Shown: positions 33,257-43,380 of the stretch, piece after piece
How the letters are laid out: each line of letters starts with the position of its first letter
How positions within the stretch are numbered: position 1 is the stretch's first letter
NCBI RefSeq assembly: GCF_900475755.1
Contig: NZ_LS483411.1
Coordinates: 1,426,001-1,490,000 of the forward strand
Length of the DNA stretch: 64,000 bases
Direction: 5' to 3'
Source of the DNA: Haemophilus influenzae
GTDB taxonomy: Bacteria > Pseudomonadota > Gammaproteobacteria > Enterobacterales > Pasteurellaceae
Made by a program: the position numbers and the translations under genes
Notes under the pieces: model-generated
The model's database searches: none
What the model saw: the letters and a program-made list of their open reading frames with translations, nothing else
Told to the model about the DNA's origin: nothing

Positions 33257-33970
33257 GGGGCTGACGTAGATTAGCAAGTGTGCTAGTCTATAAAATGAAT
33301 ATAACTCATTGTAAATTAAAGAAATCTATACAAAATAAGCTCCTTGAATTTTTTGTATTAGAAATTACAGCCCAAGCAGCGGCTGATTTACTCGGTATCC
33401 AAGCCAATTCAGCGATTTTGTTTTACCGAAAAATTCGTGAAGTCATTAGCTATCTCATTTAGCCCTTGAAGCCGATGAGGTTGTTGATGGTCAAATTGAG
33501 CTTGATGAAAGCTATTTTGGCGGTCATCGTAAAGGAAAACGAGGTCGAGGCGCAGCAGGAAAAGTTGCCGTATTTGGTTTGTTAAAACGACAAGGAAAAG
33601 TATTTACGGTAGTGGTAGAAAATACCAAAACAGAGACATTAATGCCTGTTATTGTGAGGAAAATCAAGCCTGACAGCTGGGTTTATACCGATACTTATCG
33701 AAGCTATGATGCCCTTGATGTGAGCAAATTTCACCACGAACGAATCAATCATTCCGAACTATTTGCGGTGAAACAAAACCACATAAATGGAATAGAAAAT
33801 TTCTGGAGTCAGGCGAGGAGAATCCTCCGAAAATATAATGGAATCGACCGAAAAAACTTTCCTTTATTCTTGAAGGAATGTAAATTTCGGTTTAACTTTG
33901 GAGCACCAAAAGAACAGCTTAAAATATTGAGAAAATGGCGTGGTATTTAGGGCTAATCTACGTCAGCCCC
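33257..33970 (+). mobile_element. IS1016-type element copy 2, 714 bp, defective transposase
   Basis: Perfect 19-bp terminal inverted repeats: GGGGCTGACGTAGATTAGC and GCTAATCTACGTCAGCCCC. The transposase frame is broken by a 2-bp insertion near 33453-33456 relative to copy 1 (CTATCTCATTT versus CTATCATTT); otherwise it runs to LKILRKWRGI and stop, with the DDE ISXO2-like domain (DESYFGGHRKGKRG, WVYTDTYRSYDA, NHINGIENFWSQ). The flanks (TATAAAATAAA on the left, TTACATTATC on the right) show no target duplication, so the two flanks probably come from different insertions joined by recombination. Confidence 0.92.
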
Positions 33971-33980
33971 TTACATTATC

Positions 33981-34838
33981 TTGGCAAAGGGTATCATTGG
34001 TGGGATTGAACGTTCGGTAAAATATTTAATGCCACTGCTATTTATCTTCTTAATTGGAATGGTTATTCGCAACGTAACATTACCGGGCGCAATGGAAGGC
34101 ATTACATTCTATTTAAAACCAGATTTCAGCAAAATTACGCCACAATTATTTATCTTCGTTTTAGGTCAAGTCTTCTTCGCATTAAGTCTTGGTTTTGGTG
34201 TATTAATTACCCTTTCCAGTTACCTCAATAAAGAAGAAAACTTAATCCATACTGCAGTGATTACAGGTTTCACCAACACAATTATCGCCGTACTTGCTGG
34301 CTTTATGATTTTCCCCTCACTTTTCACTTTTGGAATTGAACCAAACGCAGGGCCAACATTAGTATTCCAAAGTTTACCTATCGTATTTTCTCACTTATGG
34401 GCAGGTAAATTCTTTGCAATTATTTTCTTCGGCTTATTATTAATTGCTGCGCTAACGACTTCTATCACAATTTATGAAGTAATCATCACGGCATTGCAAG
34501 AAAAACTCAGAATGCGTCGTGGTAAAGCCATTATTTTTACGCTTGGAGGGATCTTTCTATTAGGCAATATCCCTGCAATTTTAGGGGGTAATCTATGGAA
34601 AAGCGTAACCATCTTCGGCAAAAGCATTTTTGATTTCTACGATTACGCCAGTGGAAATATTCTCTTTATGCTGACCGCACTTGGCTGTGCTATTTTCGTG
34701 GGTTTCGTATTAAAAGATGAAGCTAAAAAAGAACTTTCTTCAACAAAATATTCAACTTTTATCAAAATTTGGTTTAACTACGTGAAATTTGTTGTCCCCG
34801 TGATCATCTTAGTGATTTTTATTAGCAACCTGTTCTAA
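33981..34838 (+). pseudogene. sodium-dependent (SNF family) transporter, N-terminus lost at IS1016
   Basis: 285 codons of the C-terminal part of a neurotransmitter:sodium symporter family protein: GIERSVKYLMPLLFIFLIGM, FFALSLGFGVLITLSSYLNK (the conserved loop with the SLGxG motif) and about seven helices. Full members are near 450-500 residues, so helices 1-5 and the sodium site at the start are missing. The frame opens directly beyond the IS right end with a TTG, with no ribosome site. In Rd a homologue lies next to modC, as I recall, which fits the next block. Confidence 0.85.
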
Positions 34839-35001: not shown

Positions 35002-35144
35002 GTAGGGTGGGCGTAAGCCCACGCATTTGACTTAAATAATTATCCTTAGTCATATTTATTTTATCGTGAGCGTAAGCCCACTCATTTAACTCAAATAATT
35101 ATCCTTGTCATATTTATTTTTTCGTGGGCTTACGCCCACCCTAC
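35002..35144. repeat. intergenic dyad repeats downstream of hifE
   Basis: Three copies of the dyad unit built on GTGGGCGTAAGCCCAC lie here: 35002-35023 forward, a degenerate copy at 35065-35082, and 35123-35144 inverted. The stem GTGGGC/GCCCAC encloses GTAA, a GNRA-type tetraloop in plus-strand RNA. The intervening DNA is itself a partial duplication (AATTATCCTT then TCATATTTATTTT, twice). Similar dyads flank hif genes in other Haemophilus, as I recall. They may help stop hifE transcription. Confidence 0.8.
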
Positions 35145-35152
35145 GGACTTGG

Positions 35153-36391
35153 TTATTGATATGACAAGGTATAAGTTGCGCGACCTTCTAATTCTCCACC
35201 TTCAATTTTTTTGGAATTATCCAATTTAATTAATTCGGGAGTAAAGCTAATAATGTATGTATTTTGCTGTGGAAATTCTTTGGTTAATTTAATTTGGTTT
35301 TGAGTGCCTTTTTTAGGGCTGTCAGGTCCGAAGCTGATGTAATTACCATTTTTTTGTTTCAGTTTTATGCCAACATTGGCAGTTTGCGCGCCGTTATTTT
35401 TGTAAATCATTTTAAGTGTATCACTTCTGTTGCCAAGATTATTTGCATCGGTAAATACAATCCACGGGTTAATATAAGCGTTTGAACCGCAGTTTACACG
35501 AATATCTACATCACTTGTTTTAATAGGCGTGGTAATGTCTGAACTCTTTTTCGTGCCGAAATCTCGAGTATAATCTGCCACTCCTTTAATATTACAGGTT
35601 ACTGCAGTAAGGCGTATTGTTACGTTACTGCCGTTGATTGCTGTCCCAGCATCTTCGGTAACTACTGGTTTCGGTCCTGAACGACTGTATCCATTTAAAG
35701 AAAATGCCCCGAAATACGAGTTTTGTAATTTGAGATCAATATCTCCGCTTGGAAATTGAAAGCCATGTACTAAATGACTAAGATCAATCGGTGTAATTTC
35801 CATTATCGGTGTTATACGTAACTCTTCTCCTGTAAATCCACAACCACTTCTAAATGTATAAAAATAATCATTTATATTATGCCAATCTTGAAGCCTAGTA
35901 TTTTCCCCAACCCTTGCAGGCTGACCTGATAATCTAGTTTTAATTCTAAAAGTAAAGCCTAAATAAGGGAATTCTTTTAGCTGAAAAATAGTCGGAGATG
36001 TATTAGGAATCTTATTCCAAATAAATTCATCTAAACGTAACTCAGAGGCAAAACAGGAATTATTTCTTGAGCTTGATTTTTTGGGGATCTTATAAGTTTC
36101 CATTGTAATTTCGTGTTTACCTAAAGCTTGGATCAGTTTTTCCATATTAATAGGTTTTAAAGTCAAACTAGGATTATCTCGTGGAAAAAGATAACGCTCT
36201 GTTAATACTGGTCCTTTAGGATAATGTACTACAGACTGCCCACCGGGAAAACGAATACACCCGTGATTTCCTCCTGTATCACACTCATTATGCCACACTC
36301 CTTGCTTATCCGCCTGCACCTCTTGAGGTATAGCATTGAGAATAATAAAAAGAGCGGTCAATTTTTGAAATGTTTTTACAAATTTATTCAT
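35153..36391 (-). CDS. hifE: pilus tip adhesin
   Basis: 412 residues from ATG 36391, which overlaps the end of the preceding pilin gene by 8 bp; GAGG lies upstream. The signal peptide ends near QEVQA. A large N-terminal domain (about 30-240) with paired cysteines, then a pilin-like domain ending GRATYTLSYQ, give the two-domain layout of chaperone-usher tip adhesins. The terminal beta-strand ends in SYQ, resembling the pilin C-terminal chaperone-binding motif. Receptor unknown; HifE is linked to haemagglutination and epithelial binding in H. influenzae. Confidence 0.82.
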   Translation of the reverse strand: MNKFVKTFQKLTALFIILNAIPQEVQADKQGVWHNECDTGGNHGCIRFPGGQSVVHYPKGPVLTERYLFPRDNPSLTLKPINMEKLIQALGKHEITMETYKIPKKSSSRNNSCFASELRLDEFIWNKIPNTSPTIFQLKEFPYLGFTFRIKTRLSGQPARVGENTRLQDWHNINDYFYTFRSGCGFTGEELRITPIMEITPIDLSHLVHGFQFPSGDIDLKLQNSYFGAFSLNGYSRSGPKPVVTEDAGTAINGSNVTIRLTAVTCNIKGVADYTRDFGTKKSSDITTPIKTSDVDIRVNCGSNAYINPWIVFTDANNLGNRSDTLKMIYKNNGAQTANVGIKLKQKNGNYISFGPDSPKKGTQNQIKLTKEFPQQNTYIISFTPELIKLDNSKKIEGGELEGRATYTLSYQ

Positions 36392-37016
36392 AGAATACCT
36401 CAAAGGTCATTTCGCTGGCGACTTTGCCAGCTTTGTCTGAAGATCCAGCTGTTACAGCATAGAATTTGGCTGTCAGGGTAATGTCAAAAGTGTCTCCATT
36501 TGCTTTTGCCCCAAGTTGAGTGCCAGTATATCCACTACTAGCGGAATTATCTGTCGGTAAGGTTTGTTTTGTTACTTTAATCACTTTTCCAGCCTCACTG
36601 CCACTTGTGGCAAAAATTTGGATACCAACACTATCTTTATTGCCTGAATTCTGCACCGTATTTTTTAAATAGTATTGCACGTTCAATCCATTAGTTGTAA
36701 TAACCTTAAGTTCAGCATAAGGCGAAACAAAATAATATTTCAAGCGATTTGCGTTTTTCGTATTCGGCATTTCGCCACAATTTCTTACAGAAAGAGTAAA
36801 GTCTGTTCCGCCAACAGTGGTTCCTTCTCCTGTAAACTGATGGCTTCTTACCCGCCCTAAATCGACGGTTTTTCCCGCGGTTTCGGTGGTAATATTACAT
36901 AATCTAGCTGCAAGCACCTTGCCTGAAAAAGTCACTTTACCGTGATTTGCAGCATAGCCTTGTGGCAAGCCGAATAGCAAAAATAGCACGCCTGCCCATA
37001 AGCTCGTTTTTCTCAT
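36384..37016 (-). CDS. minor pilin, second HifD-like copy
   Basis: 210 residues from ATG 37016 (AAGGAG upstream). The signal peptide ends near PQGYAA. Pilin features are a cysteine pair (ARLCNIT and VRNCGEM), a donor-strand region and the C-terminal MTFEVFYE. It is clearly a paralogue of the next upstream gene: both contain NKDSVGVQ/NKDSVGIQ and KARFYAITNG/TAKFYAVTAG and end in FYE. Canonical hif clusters have one hifD, so this is an extra minor subunit. Confidence 0.82.
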   Translation of the reverse strand: MRKTSLWAGVLFLLFGLPQGYAANHGKVTFSGKVLAARLCNITTETAGKTVDLGRVRSHQFTGEGTTVGGTDFTLSVRNCGEMPNTKNANRLKYYFVSPYAELKVITTNGLNVQYYLKNTVQNSGNKDSVGIQIFATSGSEAGKVIKVTKQTLPTDNSASSGYTGTQLGAKANGDTFDITLTAKFYAVTAGSSDKAGKVASEMTFEVFYE

Positions 37017-37029
37017 TTTAACTCCTTGC

Positions 37030-37650
37030 TTATTCATAAAAGGCAGCAAAAATCACTTCTGCTCGCACATCGCCTGCTTTATCATCTTTGCCATTTGTAA
37101 TGGCATAAAAGCGTGCTTTTAAAGGCAATTTAAAAGCGTGCTTTTTCCCTATTACAACCTCTGCCCCGAGAGTATTCCCATTCGGGCTTAAAACAAGTGT
37201 TTCAGTGGGAGATGACGAGGCATTGTATTTTATTTCAACAGGATTACCTTGTTTGGTTAATAATTGCACGCCAACGCTATCTTTATTGGCACCTGTTTCA
37301 AGATTTGGTAACACACCTTTGGCTAATAAATCAGTCTTGTTTGTGGTATTCATTAACACAAATTTCAGTTTATTGGTTTCATTGATTAAATCGCCGCATT
37401 CTTCCACCCAAAGATCGAAATCTTTTTCGCCTGCGGTTTGGTTGGCTGTGCTAAGTTCATTGGCATACACTGTGCCGAGATCAACTTGTTTATTTTCATA
37501 GCCACTATGCACTTGGCAAGTGCCACCATTTTTAATCGTTACGGTAAATTTTACCCAACCATCAGATGCAGAGCTAAAAGGTGCCACAAATAACAAGCTG
37601 AATAAGCCTATTATTTGGCGGAATAAACCCTGCTTTTTCAATTTTTTCAT
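37030..37650 (-). CDS. hifD: minor pilin subunit
   Basis: 206 residues from ATG 37650 (GGAGG eight bases upstream; an ATG 15 bp earlier contains that site and is rejected). The signal peptide ends near FSSAS. Disulfide cysteines lie in GGTCQVHSG and VEECGDLIN; the C terminus VIFAAFYE is the chaperone/donor strand with penultimate tyrosine. In hif systems HifD joins the shaft to the tip adhesin. It lies 15 bp after the usher stop. Confidence 0.85.
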   Translation of the reverse strand: MKKLKKQGLFRQIIGLFSLLFVAPFSSASDGWVKFTVTIKNGGTCQVHSGYENKQVDLGTVYANELSTANQTAGEKDFDLWVEECGDLINETNKLKFVLMNTTNKTDLLAKGVLPNLETGANKDSVGVQLLTKQGNPVEIKYNASSSPTETLVLSPNGNTLGAEVVIGKKHAFKLPLKARFYAITNGKDDKAGDVRAEVIFAAFYE

Positions 37651-37665
37651 TGGTTTATCCTCCAT

Positions 37666-40248
37666 TTATTGACACACTTTTTCATATTGTTGCATTTGGG
37701 TGGCATTCTCTAAATTCACGCTGTAATCAAAATGGCATTGGTTTTGCTCGCCATTTCCCCAGCTGACTTTGATTGTGCCTTTTGGCTGTTGTAAACCACC
37801 AGCGAACAGCACACCATTTTGCACCACATAGCCGACAAATTGCCCTTGTTCATCATAAGCTTCGGATGCCATTGGCAATAATTCGCCGTTCGTACGGGTT
37901 AAGTTAAACAATACGAGGCGATTACGTTTGGTTTCAAAATCAATCACGTGAATACTATTGGCTCGCGGAATAATTTTTTTCTCCGTACCATCAAATTCAA
38001 TATTTAGCGGTAAATTTTGCGGATCGATACCAATTTCATTAATGCGATAAGGCTGAGTGTAAGGCACAATGGCATTACCGAACCAATCCAACATTTGCCC
38101 TTGTCCGCTATTCACTTCCGCACCAGCTGCACCATCTGCATGCACCACCGCAAAACTGTCGCCAACAGATTCGCCAAAAGTTAATCCATGGCGATGTGCA
38201 ACCACTACACCAGATAAATTAGAACTCATTTGACGAGATCCACGATTATCTCTAGAGGCGGAAGCATCAAAGTCGAAATAAGAATTACGATAACTCATAT
38301 TTGCTGACATATTGCGATATCCCTCTTGTCCTGAGTTGCCATATACGCCATAACTCCATTGACTATTTTTACCAAAACTTCCATTGATACCAATTTGGCT
38401 ACTGCTATTACCTGCCGAATTACGTGCGTAATTAGACGAAAGTGAATGGTTATGACCTAACGGCACACTCATACTCAAATAAATTTGGTTATCACGCTGC
38501 CCACTTTGTCGATCAATCGTTTGTGAAAAGCCGATTTGATAACTTAGCCATTTAAAACGATTCGCATAAGAGAGTTGATATTGATGATAACTGCCTGATT
38601 TATTCCAATAATTACGTGTTGCGCCAACTAAATATAAACTTCCCCATTTATCAAAATCTTGAATAATGGATAGTTGATACTGATTTTTAGGGCGAGGCGA
38701 TAACACAGAAAAAAAGCTTTTCCCAATGACATGATTCGCATTAATCACGTCACTTAAACTATAAAAATCACGAGAAGAATAACGATAAGCTGCTAGCGTA
38801 ATATTGGTGCGAGTGCGGTTAAAATTAATACTGTAATTACCATGTAAACTATAACCTTTTCTCACGCTTGGCTGTGTGTTCATTGCACCATTTTCATCCA
38901 CAAGACTGTGCGGCAAAAAGGTACTACGAGTCCAAGTACTATCTACAGAAAACGCACCAATCGGGGTATTCAATCCTAACCCTAACGCACCTGACAAGTA
39001 ATTTTTACTATAAGTCACACCCGTATTAATAGTGATATTATTATATAAACCATATTGCAACATACTTTGTGCGACATTATCAGGATAGATTTCTTCCCCG
39101 CTGCGATAACGCCCTGCAGCGAGTTGATAGCGGAATTGTCCCATTCTAATCAGTGGGGCAACATTAGAAAACGGCACGATAAATGACCGCACTTTTCCGT
39201 CTGCCTCTTTGATTTCCACCGTGAGATCGCCGTTATAGCCACTAGAATAAAGATCATCGATCACAAAAGGCCCAGGCGTGACATTAGTTTGATAAATGAT
39301 ATTGCCATTTTGATAAATGCTCACTACGGCATTACTATTTGCAATACCTTGCACACGAGGCGCAAAACCAAGTTGTGATGGCGAGAGCATTCGATCATCA
39401 GAAGAGATATCAATACCACGTAATGCAAACCCTTCAACAACTTGTCCAGATGTATAAAAATCGCCTAAAGTAACCAGCCCACGAATCGGTGCAAAATCTC
39501 TCTGTACATAGGTTTCGTAAGTTTGGTATGGCGTATTGTAGCTTTGACCTTCACTTTGGCTCCAACTTTTTGAACCAGAATGACGAAATGCCCAGTTACC
39601 TAAATTAACCCCTGTTCGCAAATTTAAAAACATTTGCGAAGATTGCGAACCTTGGTTTGCATAACGACTGTGGTTAATATTGTAATCAGCAAACGCTGCC
39701 ACATCGCCTGTTTGCCAACGGCTTGGCGCAATGTAATCGCGAGGACGATTAATTGTTAAGGCTTGTGCAATCGTAAATTCTAAACGCTGTTGCCCTGTAT
39801 TAAATACCGCTTTCCCATCAGGAATTGCTTCTTGAATAAACACGCACTCATTCTCACTTGGGGAGCGTTTGATAGCAGCTGATTCTAAATCCAACAAGGC
39901 TTCTAATTCAGGGGTAAAACAAAGCTGTGCAAAAGGTATATTTGCATTTTCATTATCACGAAAACGCAATGTCATTTCGCCTTTTTCTTTGCCATTTACC
40001 CAAACAGCAGCGGGGTATTCTCCAGGTAATACGCTGTTTTTTTGTTGAAAACGTGCAACATCAATGTTAGAACCATTACCGCCCATATTCAAAAAGCCAG
40101 CACTAAATTCCACATCTTCATCTTCTACATTCAAGCTTTCTTTTGGTGTATTTGGTACGTTTTCCGCCTTTGTATACAAGGGGAAAAAAGCCAATCCAAT
40201 TAAAAAACCAATTAGACTTAAATGCGGATTAAAAGAAAATTCTCTCAT
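37666..40248 (-). CDS. hifC: outer-membrane usher
   Basis: 860 residues, the usual usher length. Signal peptide near residues 1-28. The N-terminal chaperone-binding domain has FSAGFLNMGGNGSNIDVARF near 48. The 24-strand barrel follows with its plug (GFAPRVQGIANSNAVVSIYQ near 290, NAPGPF-like VTPGPFVIDDLYSSGYNGDL). The C-terminal domains end FDYSVNLENATQMQQYEKVC with a terminal cysteine. It secretes and assembles pilin-chaperone complexes. GAGG precedes the ATG. A 430-bp repeat-filled gap separates it from hifB. Confidence 0.93.
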   Translation of the reverse strand: MREFSFNPHLSLIGFLIGLAFFPLYTKAENVPNTPKESLNVEDEDVEFSAGFLNMGGNGSNIDVARFQQKNSVLPGEYPAAVWVNGKEKGEMTLRFRDNENANIPFAQLCFTPELEALLDLESAAIKRSPSENECVFIQEAIPDGKAVFNTGQQRLEFTIAQALTINRPRDYIAPSRWQTGDVAAFADYNINHSRYANQGSQSSQMFLNLRTGVNLGNWAFRHSGSKSWSQSEGQSYNTPYQTYETYVQRDFAPIRGLVTLGDFYTSGQVVEGFALRGIDISSDDRMLSPSQLGFAPRVQGIANSNAVVSIYQNGNIIYQTNVTPGPFVIDDLYSSGYNGDLTVEIKEADGKVRSFIVPFSNVAPLIRMGQFRYQLAAGRYRSGEEIYPDNVAQSMLQYGLYNNITINTGVTYSKNYLSGALGLGLNTPIGAFSVDSTWTRSTFLPHSLVDENGAMNTQPSVRKGYSLHGNYSINFNRTRTNITLAAYRYSSRDFYSLSDVINANHVIGKSFFSVLSPRPKNQYQLSIIQDFDKWGSLYLVGATRNYWNKSGSYHQYQLSYANRFKWLSYQIGFSQTIDRQSGQRDNQIYLSMSVPLGHNHSLSSNYARNSAGNSSSQIGINGSFGKNSQWSYGVYGNSGQEGYRNMSANMSYRNSYFDFDASASRDNRGSRQMSSNLSGVVVAHRHGLTFGESVGDSFAVVHADGAAGAEVNSGQGQMLDWFGNAIVPYTQPYRINEIGIDPQNLPLNIEFDGTEKKIIPRANSIHVIDFETKRNRLVLFNLTRTNGELLPMASEAYDEQGQFVGYVVQNGVLFAGGLQQPKGTIKVSWGNGEQNQCHFDYSVNLENATQMQQYEKVCQ

Positions 40249-40347: not shown

Positions 40348-40392
40348 ATTAATCACTCTCACAACATTAAATATTGTGCGTATCCATTACTT

Positions 40393-40677
40393 GAATATAT
40401 TTCATCGCATCGCCCCAACACCTCGTAGGGTGGGCGTAAGCCCATGGTAAAATGAATATATTTCATCGCATCCCCAAAAACCTCGTAGGGTGGGCGTAAG
40501 CCCACGGTAAAATGAATATATTTCATCGCATCGCCCAAAGCCTCGTAGGGTGGGCGTAAGCCCACGGTAAAATGAATGTATTTCATCGCATCCCCAAAAA
40601 CCTCGTAGGGTGGGCGTAAGCCCACGGTAAAATGAATATATTTCATCGCATCGCCCCAAAACCTGTAGGGGGCATAC
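40393..40677. repeat. 60-bp tandem repeat array carrying the dyad
   Basis: Four full units start at 40393, 40453, 40513 and 40573, and a degenerate fifth starts at 40633. The period is exactly 60 bp. Each unit holds AATATATTTCATCGCAT, then CCTCGTAGGGTGGGCGTAAG and CCCACGGTAAAATG. Units differ at a few bases (CGCCCCAACA, CCCCAAAAA and CGCCCAAAG variants alternate). In RNA each unit forms a short hairpin. The array lies between the chaperone stop and usher start of one operon. It is not a CRISPR array: there are no unique spacers. Confidence 0.9.
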
Positions 40678-40679
40678 GG

Positions 40680-41387
40680 TTAATTAATGGTTGATTCGCC
40701 TGCTACGTCGCCGCCATAATCATTAATTAACGACCATTTCACTTTTTGTCCGTTATTTACACCTTTTACGTCAAATTCTCCTTGGCTAAAAGGGGCGACC
40801 ATCACAGCTTCAGGGGCGGATTTACCACCAACTGTGGCTTGTGTAAAAGTTAAATAATAAGGTGTTGGATTATCTGCCCAAAGTTTGCCGCCTTTGGCTT
40901 GCCAAGACACTTTTTTGTAGGCTTCTGCTGGTGGATAAGGCAAATTGCTTGGGCGGTAAAAGAGTTTTAAACGGCTACGCACCGAAAACTGCAAATAATT
41001 CGGGTTGTCTTTTAAATAGGCTTTACTTGGTTTAGGTGGAATATCCAATAAGTTAAAATAATAAAGCGATTCGCGATCTTGTGGTAAAGCTTGTGTGCCA
41101 GTAAAGGTGATACGCAAGGTTTGCCCTTGATTCCCCTCCACACGCGTGACGGGTGGCGTAATAATAAATGGCACCTGTGCTTGGCTGCCTTGTTTGTCTT
41201 CAATCCAGCTTTGCACCAAAGCAGGGGAAGAATCTTGATTATTCAATTGCACATTGAGACTGCTTTGATTCCCTGGGTAAATTAAACGCGTACCCAGAAT
41301 AATCACACTAGCGTGAGCGGAAAAGGTGGCAAATAAACAGGATAAAATCGCAGAAATAAAAATAGATTTTTTAGAAAAGGACAACAT
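40680..41387 (-). CDS. hifB: periplasmic pilus chaperone
   Basis: 235 residues. The signal peptide ends near FSAHA. PapD-like features: TRLIYPGNQSSLNVQLNNQD with the conserved arginine near 33, ESLYYFNLLDIPP near 115, and the lysine in RSRLKLFYRPSNLP near 140 that anchors the pilin C terminus. It caps pilins before delivery to HifC. In typical hif clusters it is divergent from hifA; here both point the same way, with a hairpin between them. Confidence 0.93.
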   Translation of the reverse strand: MLSFSKKSIFISAILSCLFATFSAHASVIILGTRLIYPGNQSSLNVQLNNQDSSPALVQSWIEDKQGSQAQVPFIITPPVTRVEGNQGQTLRITFTGTQALPQDRESLYYFNLLDIPPKPSKAYLKDNPNYLQFSVRSRLKLFYRPSNLPYPPAEAYKKVSWQAKGGKLWADNPTPYYLTFTQATVGGKSAPEAVMVAPFSQGEFDVKGVNNGQKVKWSLINDYGGDVAGESTIN

Positions 41388-41465: not shown

Positions 41466-42071
41466 TTACTCGTATGCTAAGTCTAATTCAGCTTCTGCTT
41501 TTACTTTACCTGCTTGAGATTGGCCTGTTGCGTAGTAACGGGCAAGGAAGTTTATCGCTGGCGTTGTAGAAAGATCAGTTACGCTTAATTTAGCATCAGC
41601 ATCATTTTGTCCAATTTTTAATCCATTGCCGTTAATATTAGCAAATTGAATATTAACATTTGTAGCTGGATCATTAGTCTCAATATTTTTTAATGTAAAC
41701 TGATTAGCAGTATCTACTTTTTCAGTATGGTTAAAAGTAACAGAGACTTTATTTTGAGTAGTTTGATGAACTGTACCTACATGTGGAGTATGAACGCCAT
41801 TTGTAACGGTACAGTTTTCTAAATGAATAGTAACTAATTGTTGAGCTGCCACGTTACCTGTTTGTTTTAAACTATTTGTGCCTACTTTATCCAAAGTGAC
41901 AACTTTATTTCTATCATTTGTAGAAATTTCACAAGTTTGAGTCACAACTTCACCATTAACGGTAATTTTTGCATGAGTTGCGGGTTGGTTTTGTGTTGTT
42001 ACCGCCGTTGCAAACGCACTATTAGCACCAACCACCCCTAATGCTAATAAAGCTAAGATTGTTTTTTTCAT
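41466..42071 (-). CDS. hifA: major pilin
   Basis: 201 residues from ATG 42071, chosen for its AGGATG ribosome site and clean signal peptide MKKTILALLALGVVGANSAF; longer upstream starts add a non-signal extension. Mature features: cysteine pair in QTCEIST and ENCTVTN, a threonine/asparagine-rich body, and a C-terminal AELDLAYE with penultimate tyrosine. It forms the pilus shaft. The T17 tract of its promoter lies about 97 bp upstream of the start. Confidence 0.88.
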   Translation of the reverse strand: MKKTILALLALGVVGANSAFATAVTTQNQPATHAKITVNGEVVTQTCEISTNDRNKVVTLDKVGTNSLKQTGNVAAQQLVTIHLENCTVTNGVHTPHVGTVHQTTQNKVSVTFNHTEKVDTANQFTLKNIETNDPATNVNIQFANINGNGLKIGQNDADAKLSVTDLSTTPAINFLARYYATGQSQAGKVKAEAELDLAYE

Positions 42072-42163
42072 TTTAAACATCCTATATAAAAACTTTAGAA
42101 TAAATTTCATCCTAGATTGGATGACCACGTTTAAACCCGATAATTTAGAGTGAAAACTTACCT

Positions 42164-42190
42164 ATTCTAAAAAAAAAAAAAAAAATGCAA
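42164..42190 (-). promoter_or_regulatory. hifA promoter with homopolymer spacer
   Basis: On the minus strand, TTGCAT (42190-42185) and TAGAAT (42169-42164) resemble -35 and -10 hexamers, and the 15 bases between them are all T. The whole T run is 17 (42169-42185). A spacer of 15 is shorter than the optimum of 17, so this copy number would be weak; slippage by two bases would restore it. This is inference from sequence; no start site was mapped. Confidence 0.6.
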
Positions 42191-42253
42191 TCTGTATAAA
42201 TATCAGGGTAATTTAATAAATTTCTTTATTTTTCTAGATATTAAGCAAAAAAA

Positions 42254-42280
42254 AACGCTTGTAATATAACTACAAGCGTT
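42254..42280. terminator. terminator of the modABC operon
   Basis: AACGCTTGTA and TACAAGCGTT form a 10-bp stem with a 7-base loop, flanked by A9 and T6 runs, so it can act on either strand. It lies 45 bp after the modC stop and just upstream of the hifA promoter. Confidence 0.9.
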
Positions 42281-42324
42281 TTTTATATTATGTCGTATTA
42301 GTGTTTTATTCAGTAAAGCGTTTA

Positions 42325-43380
42325 CTACATCACCGACACCGCTTTAATCTGAACATAAACATCTTGCCCAACAGCAAAACGCAGTTCATTTTGCGCCCAT
42401 TTACTGATGCTTGCCCAAATCTTATGCCCTTCCACTAATACGGCAAGATCCACTCGAGAATCTTGTATCTCAATTTGTGTAATTTTGCCACGTAAAATAT
42501 TACGAATGCTTGTTTGTTCTGGCTTTTGCAGTGTAATAGAAACATCTGAACTATAAATACAAACTCGCACTCGTTCGCTTACATTCGCGGGCACTTGATG
42601 AATCCAAAGTGCTTGTTCGCCTAACGAAAGTGCGGTCATTTTATAAGGTGGATTATGCAAATAAACAGGCAAGGCAAGTACACTACTCTGTTCGCTTTCC
42701 CCTTTCCAAGGGGCAAAAATAGCACTATTCCAAATTTTTTCTACGCTGTCATAGGCTTTCACAATGCCGTTTTCCATCAGCACAACGCGATCAGCTAAAC
42801 GCAACAATTCGTCCAAGCTATGTGTAACATATAAAATCGGGATATTAATTTCTTTAGAAAGACGTTCCAAATATTGCATTAGCTCGCGTTTGCGGGGAAC
42901 ATCAAGGGCTGAAAGAGGTTCGTCCATGAGCAAAATATCTGGATCAGTCAGCAACGCGCGCCCGATTGCCACACGTTGTTTCTCTCCACCAGAAAGCGTG
43001 AGCGGATAACGCTTTAATAAATGAGTAATGCCGAGAAGATCGACAATATAGTTAAAATCATCTTGCGAGACATTTTTCATGCCATAACGCAAATTGCCTT
43101 TCACACTGTAGTGAGGAAATAAGCGCGCATCTTGGAACACATAGCCAATTTTACGCAAGTGGGTCGGCAAGCATTCTTGGCTTTCCATATCCACTAAAGT
43201 GCGGTCATTTAAACGGATAAATCCTTCGTCTGGTTGTATCAAACCACTGACAAGATTAATCAGCGACGTTTTGCCAGAGCCAGACAAACCGAAAATAGCT
43301 GTCACGCCTTGATCTGGTACTTGTATATTCGCTTGCAAGGCAAGTTGCCCGAGCTGTTTTTTCACATTAATCTGCAACAT
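42325..43380 (-). CDS. modC: molybdate ABC transporter ATP-binding protein
   Basis: 351 residues. Walker [17 protein letters not shown] near 30-45, signature [16 protein letters not shown] near 127, Walker [13 protein letters not shown] near 150, H-loop [12 protein letters not shown]. The C-terminal Mop-like domain (about 285-345) binds molybdate. It energises ModB. The start overlaps the modB stop by 14 bp. Terminator 45 bp downstream. Confidence 0.95.

Follow-up and report, generated by a model that had tools for sequence, protein, structure and literature searches.

The aef3 operon beside modC

The stretch of Haemophilus influenzae DNA analysed here (the window, 64,000 nucleotides) carries a fimbrial operon of six genes, all on the minus strand; the initial annotation likewise called the cluster co-directional. 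The first gene, aef3A (41466..42071, Pfam Fimbrial), encodes the major fimbrial subunit and starts with an ATG at 42071, about 8 nt downstream of an AGGA-like site. It is followed by aef3B (40680..41387), encoding a chaperone with PapD_N and PapD_C, and aef3C (37666..40248), encoding an usher with Usher, PapC_N and PapC_C. The fimbrial subunit genes aef3D (37030..37665) and aef3E (36384..37049) both match Pfam Fimbrial, and the last gene, aef3F (35153..36403), encodes a fimbrial adhesin-like subunit in which the C-terminal part matches the same family. The upstream flank is modC (42325..43380, minus; NCBIfam ModC). Downstream lie an ORF for a sodium-dependent transporter lacking the N-terminal part of the profile (33981..34838, plus; NCBIfam Na_transp 140-419 of 419) and a transposase piece (33579..33950, plus; profile 103-214 of 215) of the IS1595 family, to which IS1016 presumably belongs.

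The gap between the chaperone and usher genes measures 431 bp in this genome, and 520, 252, 234 and 20 bp in the genomes G006, G008, G001 and G007. Between these genes, 40392-40670 holds a tandem array of 4.6 copies of a 60-bp unit, with an inverted repeat, GTGGGC..GCCCAC, and a second array, with a 59-bp unit in 2.3 copies, lies downstream of aef3F (35007-35139).

The operon is aef3, not hif, and its first gene is therefore aef3A rather than the hifA of the initial annotation. The name follows from the layout of modC, transporter gene and transposase, which matches aef3 of strains KR494 and F3047, and from the presence of a hif-like remnant elsewhere in the source genome. In KR494 (type f), six genes likewise stand between modC and a sodium-dependent transporter gene with an IS1016 transposase adjoining, and the cluster is again a second fimbrial locus, the other being a hif locus that lacks hifB; the gene order in F3047 (biogroup aegyptius) is described as identical, and the word “phase” does not occur in the main text of that report (PMC3928620). 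The assignment is set by location, gene order and repeat, the KR494 and F3047 clusters being known by description: the operon lies between modC and the transporter gene, comprises six co-directional genes (pilin, chaperone, usher and three further fimbrial proteins) and carries a mononucleotide repeat, T17, in the aefA promoter. In the genome G004, modC and the transporter gene are 23 bases apart and zero fimbrial genes lie between them.

A hif identity was considered and rejected. The hifA and hifB genes are divergent with TA repeats between them, whereas the genes here are co-directional, follow a T tract and adjoin modC, not the purE-pepN interval that holds the hif-like locus. In the source genome this locus is a decayed remnant (G000:C1:1172000-1181500; L077:2917-5490). 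Only the later part of its pilin frame is open, its usher is a fragment, it has a single further subunit, and (TA)5 separates its divergent frames; a search of the remnant for a chaperone ORF of 100 aa found none.

Anatomy of the putative aef3 promoter

The region upstream of aef3A holds a -35 element, TTGCAT (42185..42190, minus), and a -10 element, TAGAAT (42164..42169, minus), exactly 15 T apart within a T17 tract (42169..42185, minus), the 15-bp spacer (42170-42184) lying wholly inside the tract. This part of the initial annotation is confirmed by the sequence. The -10 element is followed by AGGTAAGTTTT (42153..42163, minus), a post--10 element that recurs in the tract flanks of similar promoters in the family. 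Transcription of aef3A would start at about 42159-42157. A scan for consensus promoters with spacers of 16–18 bp did not return this promoter. Upstream, a predicted intrinsic terminator of modC (42250..42284, minus) parts modC from aef3.

The putative 5′ leader contains a small hairpin, TCATCC-AATCTA-GGATGA (42107..42124, minus), also present in four relatives. A leader CATCC can pair either with GGATG of the hairpin or with GGATG of the ribosome site near 42082, and is conserved in the same four relatives. By eye, no compensating changes occur in the 42107-42124 pairing across them, and the 99-nt aef3A leader does not fold better than shuffled sequences (z -0.97).

The T17 tract is the longest homopolymer of the window, the next longest having 9 bases. 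An 11-T search of both strands of the whole 1,834,484-base genome gives 54 overlapping matches, which reduce to two runs, T17 and a T57. The T57 run (G000:C1:1051631-1051687; L076:1132-1188) lies 120 bp upstream of an ORF that by eye is trimeric-autotransporter-like; the scanned piece of this ORF has zero NCBIfam matches. Tracts of 20–49 bp have been described at a comparable position before Hsf-like genes (PMC2651432, available text).

The aef3 promoter in relatives

A pilin search of 61 genomes matched eight, the source genome included. Among 10 genomes of the genus searched by DNA, five have the whole promoter region, four give short matches only and one gives none. The positions of TTG, tract and -10 element are constant in the source genome and four relatives, and TTGCAT is present in all five; in G008 the -10 element reads TATAAT. 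Tract length differs, with 17 T in the source genome (G000), G006 and G008, 14 in G001 and 19 in G007, which gives spacers of 15, 15, 15, 12 and 17 bp, as read from assemblies in which homopolymer errors are possible.

The T tract fills the spacer between the -35 and -10 elements and varies in length from one relative to another, which makes switching by slippage likely. The proposal in the initial annotation that pilin expression should phase-vary by slippage is borne out as far as the spacer and the differing lengths are concerned; switching within a strain and the change in expression would be its predicted consequences, the comparison being one between genomes with the source strain represented by a single genome.

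The DNA identity between G000 and G006 is 99.8% for aefA and 99.3% for aefB, against 93.6% for modC, which points to recent transfer of the aef3 cluster.

A recurring promoter layout in Pasteurellaceae

The layout of the aef3 promoter recurs across Pasteurellaceae, which is the new observation of this work. In the DNA search of the genus, short matches covering the tract and the sequence that follows the -10 element were also found ahead of other genes: a second fimbrial cluster in G007, a lipoprotein gene next to a Slam gene in G002 and, in G001, a lipoprotein gene similar to it. A pattern built from these matches, TTG-NN-T7 or more-gap-ANAAT-NNG-NAAGTTTT, gives 25 matches in 22 of 140 genomes of the family and in 10 of 43 genera; the backwards control gives 0. 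A pure T tract of 9-24 is present in 24 of the 25, the odd one (G019) having no tract. A looser pattern that drops the TTG requirement matches 40 of the 140 genomes, with a backwards control that is not empty, and those of its matches that lack a tract appear to be chance hits.

The layout is concentrated in this family. Of 394 genomes sampled across the order, 5 match; all of these are among the 34 Pasteurellaceae in the sample, and none is among the 360 others. An exact scan of one genome per species in 84,980 species, in which records near the window's own may be omitted, returned 28 stretches, 26 from Pasteurellaceae (by title) and two others; the former include Haemophilus, Actinobacillus, Rodentibacter, Gallibacterium, Ursidibacter, Bibersteinia and “Pasteurella atlantica”.

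The same layout emerges from a listing that was not fitted to the pattern, namely the tracts of at least 12 T followed by another base in the 140 genomes, leaving aside those with G at the pattern's last letter. One genome, G070, has 53 such matches, on one strand only, compared with 0–6 in each of the other 139, which is probably an assembly artefact; G070 was left out of the tract counts, and 117 rows remain. The base after the tract is A in 73, G in 35 and C in 9, and the 44 tracts followed by G or C misfit the promoter layout. A.A[AC]T stands directly after the tract in 64 of the 117, and A[AG]G[TA]TT occupies positions 10-15 in 56. The A-following tracts have 65 distinct flanks, of which 56 are -10-like (shuffles: mean 3.1, maximum 9) and 50 carry A[AG]G[TA]TT (shuffles: mean 0.25, maximum 3).

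AAGTTT was also considered as a general promoter feature of the 140 genomes, and this was rejected. Among 123 matches joining a -10 to AAGTTT, 41 have, by eye, a T tract of at least 9 and 82 have none, compared with 56 in the backwards control. Because the 82 are not far above this control, AAGTTT is tied mainly to T tracts, although some of the 82 may be real. An ordinary sigma70 promoter does not account for the element, which calls for explanation.

Two genomes stand out for carrying several copies of the module. G141 (L188-L194) has at least seven copies, with tracts of T9, T9, T11, T12, T17, T17 and T17, most of them before autotransporter-like ORFs. In G035 (L217), a stretch of 3.2 kb ahead of a Methyltransf_9 gene holds three copies, and for two of these no separate ORF is obvious.

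Spacer length

Spacer length was read in 80 stretches, hand-picked for a -10-like flank from the tract listing, the looser pattern and the AAGTTT matches, and in 8 further loci, which gave 90 tracts; six were dropped (one without upstream DNA, one without TTG and four with a CAATAGG flank), leaving 84 sites. As the -35 position, the TTG closest to the tract was used, up to a distance of 14 nt. The 84 sites come from 46 genomes and 18 genera and include related copies; the sample excludes A-following tracts without a -10-like flank and the 44 tracts followed by G or C.

The commonest spacer is 15 bp, at 36 sites in 27 genomes and 14 genera. Spacers of 16 bp occur at 13 sites, 14 bp at 10, 17 bp at 3 and 20 bp at one, and 21 sites have fewer than 14 bp (minimum 5). 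Tract length compensates for the distance between TTG and tract: where TTG touches the tract, T19 is found in 14 of 25; with two bases between them, T17 in 11 of 27; and with seven, T11-T14 in 10 of 10. The slope of tract length on TTG-to-tract distance is -0.71, and -0.78 when each combination of genus and distance contributes a single point (n=38), where 16 of the 38 values are exactly 15. When tract lengths were shuffled among sites, 0 of 20,000 permutations gave an equally narrow distribution. Shorter tracts thus offset extra bases between TTG and tract, and this compensation argues strongly that the tract serves as a promoter spacer.

Judging by the peak, the selected spacer length is probably 15 rather than 17 bp, and 15 bp would be the “on” length. 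The view in the initial annotation that a promoter with 15 T should be weak disagrees with these comparative data, in which a spacer of 15 bp is found most often (36 of 84) and one of 17 bp seldom (3 of 84). As judged from spacer lengths, the reading for the source genome shifts from a weak aef3 promoter to one that is probably on.

Genes downstream of the tracts

The ORFs downstream of the 84 sites comprise 20 that are lipoprotein-like, 14 trimeric autotransporters, 7 Bap- or GA-repeat adhesins, 6 chaperone–usher pilins, 4 Flp pilins, 4 TerC proteins, 3 CmoB-like methyltransferases (Pfam Methyltransf_9), 2 secreted coiled-coil proteins and 15 others; for the remaining 9 sites, the next 330 nt hold no ORF of 75 aa. 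These classes were assigned from text patterns, and Pfam was run on 19 of the ORFs and one Slam gene. Among the 19, Pfam matches bear out the assignments to autotransporters, adhesins, Flp, TerC and methyltransferases. No Pfam family was found in the four lipoprotein ORFs scanned, one of which adjoins the gene with Slam domains. Some labels are to be read with care: the “lipoprotein” L177 is probably a membrane protein, the “other” L072 is a lipoprotein with too early a start, and the “autotransporter” label of L193 comes from the text pattern alone.

Surface genes lie downstream at about 51 of the 84 sites. A purely surface role is disfavoured because a minority of sites precede non-surface genes. 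Within gene classes the spacer varies (5, 15, 15 and 20 bp before Flp genes; 7 to 16 bp before trimeric autotransporters), as expected for a hypermutable tract.

Relation to known switches

Homopolymeric spacers between -35 and -10 elements control surface genes in several bacteria, such as the poly-G or poly-C of porA and opc in Neisseria and the poly-A of vlp in Mycoplasma. These differ from the aef3 promoter in phylum or tract base, and to our knowledge they do not form a single sequence class common to many unrelated genes within a family.

The aef3 locus and the idea of a mononucleotide switch are already known. In the aef1–aef4 clusters of H. influenzae biogroup aegyptius, which are of the same kind, mononucleotide repeats of 10-17 nt occur in the putative promoter upstream of aefA in aef1, aef3 and aef4, and phase variation via promoter efficiency has been proposed for them (PMC3309571). 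Tracts of A17, A12 and T12 have been reported 63-93 bp ahead of “hifA” genes that lack hifB; they were regarded as candidate switches, the authors noting that the promoter was unmapped (PMC2651432, section 3.18, Table 7). The mononucleotide version that the initial annotation presented as a different design was therefore in print for this cluster. The available texts of both reports do not give the -35/-10 layout, the 15-bp set point, the post--10 motif, the family-wide class or expression measurements (PMC3309571, PMC2651432). The (TA)n repeat of the hifA/hifB promoter is likewise proposed to change the -35/-10 spacing and so to switch fimbriae, but it is a dinucleotide repeat serving two divergent genes at a different locus (PMC2651432).

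In the open-licence papers searched, as far as their texts were available, no description of a family-wide promoter class set at 15 bp was recognised, which is weak evidence of absence. The available text on spaced motifs in A. pleuropneumoniae and H. influenzae gives terminator motifs (PMC5217627), the available text on the flp operon does not mention a T tract (PMC2175527), and the available parts of four other papers hold nothing about a T-tract promoter (PMC4299563, PMC6211672, PMC9820224, PMC11868660).

Proposed mechanism and alternatives

The reading that we favour, and hold with some confidence, is that T17 is the spacer of a switching aef3 promoter that belongs to a Pasteurellaceae class and is most likely active at 15 bp. 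In this reading, the class consists of TTG, a T-rich spacer set at 15 bp, TANAAT and N-RG-N-AAG-TTT, and is used ahead of many surface genes that are unrelated to one another. RNA polymerase would bind TTGCAT and TAGAAT; replication slippage would lengthen or shorten the T tract and shift TTGCAT relative to TAGAAT; and the changed distance would turn the aef3 operon up or down in single cells. The sequenced state, with 15 bp, would most likely be the active one, and clearly shorter spacers would be off.

The same promoter and switch might instead be on at 17 bp (T19) and weak or off at 15 bp, which we consider unlikely. The spacer optimum of sigma70 is 17 bp, and 15 bp could be the off state because it is short by this textbook rule; moreover, the aef3 relative G007 has T19 and a spacer of 17 bp, and laboratory growth of isolates may favour off states. 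Against this stands the rarity of 17 bp (3 of 84 sites) beside the 36 sites with 15 bp in 27 genomes and 14 genera, since off states would be expected to scatter, not to peak at a single value across unrelated genes. Rather more doubtful is the idea of a special promoter class in which the tract has a fixed structural role, as a rigid A-tract spacer or a site for a DNA-binding protein, and its length differences reflect neutral drift. The sharp peak at 15 and the recurring post--10 element do suggest a geometric demand, but the wide ranges within single gene classes (Flp 5-20, trimeric autotransporters 7-16) argue against it.

It is very improbable that T17 is a chance run, or forms the tail of an intrinsic terminator, with the real aef3A promoter elsewhere. 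T tracts do follow terminators, and the one predicted for modC is located some 65 bp upstream; however, that terminator has a T run of its own (42247-42255), and the T17 promoter is conserved, shows length compensation and recurs in the family. The scan shows no stem before T17, and the terminator reading was rejected on this ground.

The favoured reading, of a switch most likely active at 15 bp, extends to a broader proposal for which the balance is about even. The Pasteurellaceae would share this one class, with its 15-bp T-rich spacer, and employ it as a common, hypermutable switch ahead of unrelated surface genes, including those for lipoproteins, trimeric autotransporters, Bap-like adhesins, and Flp and chaperone–usher pilins. 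It would be active at 15 and not 17 bp, possibly through the geometry of the A-tract, which would position the elements, or through a partner protein that reads the post--10 element. A-tract DNA has a tighter twist. If the proposal is true, dozens of phase-variable surface genes across a family of animal and human bacteria could be predicted by a single rule from sequence alone, and the sharp 15-bp peak would be a directly testable claim on how RNA polymerase reads a pure A-tract spacer.

A possible C-tract analogue of the T-tract promoters is seen in fimbrial-gene regions of G022, where by eye C17 (L074:6429-6445), C10 (L075:5416-5425) and C8 (L078:5240-5247) lie between a TTG and a -10-like site.
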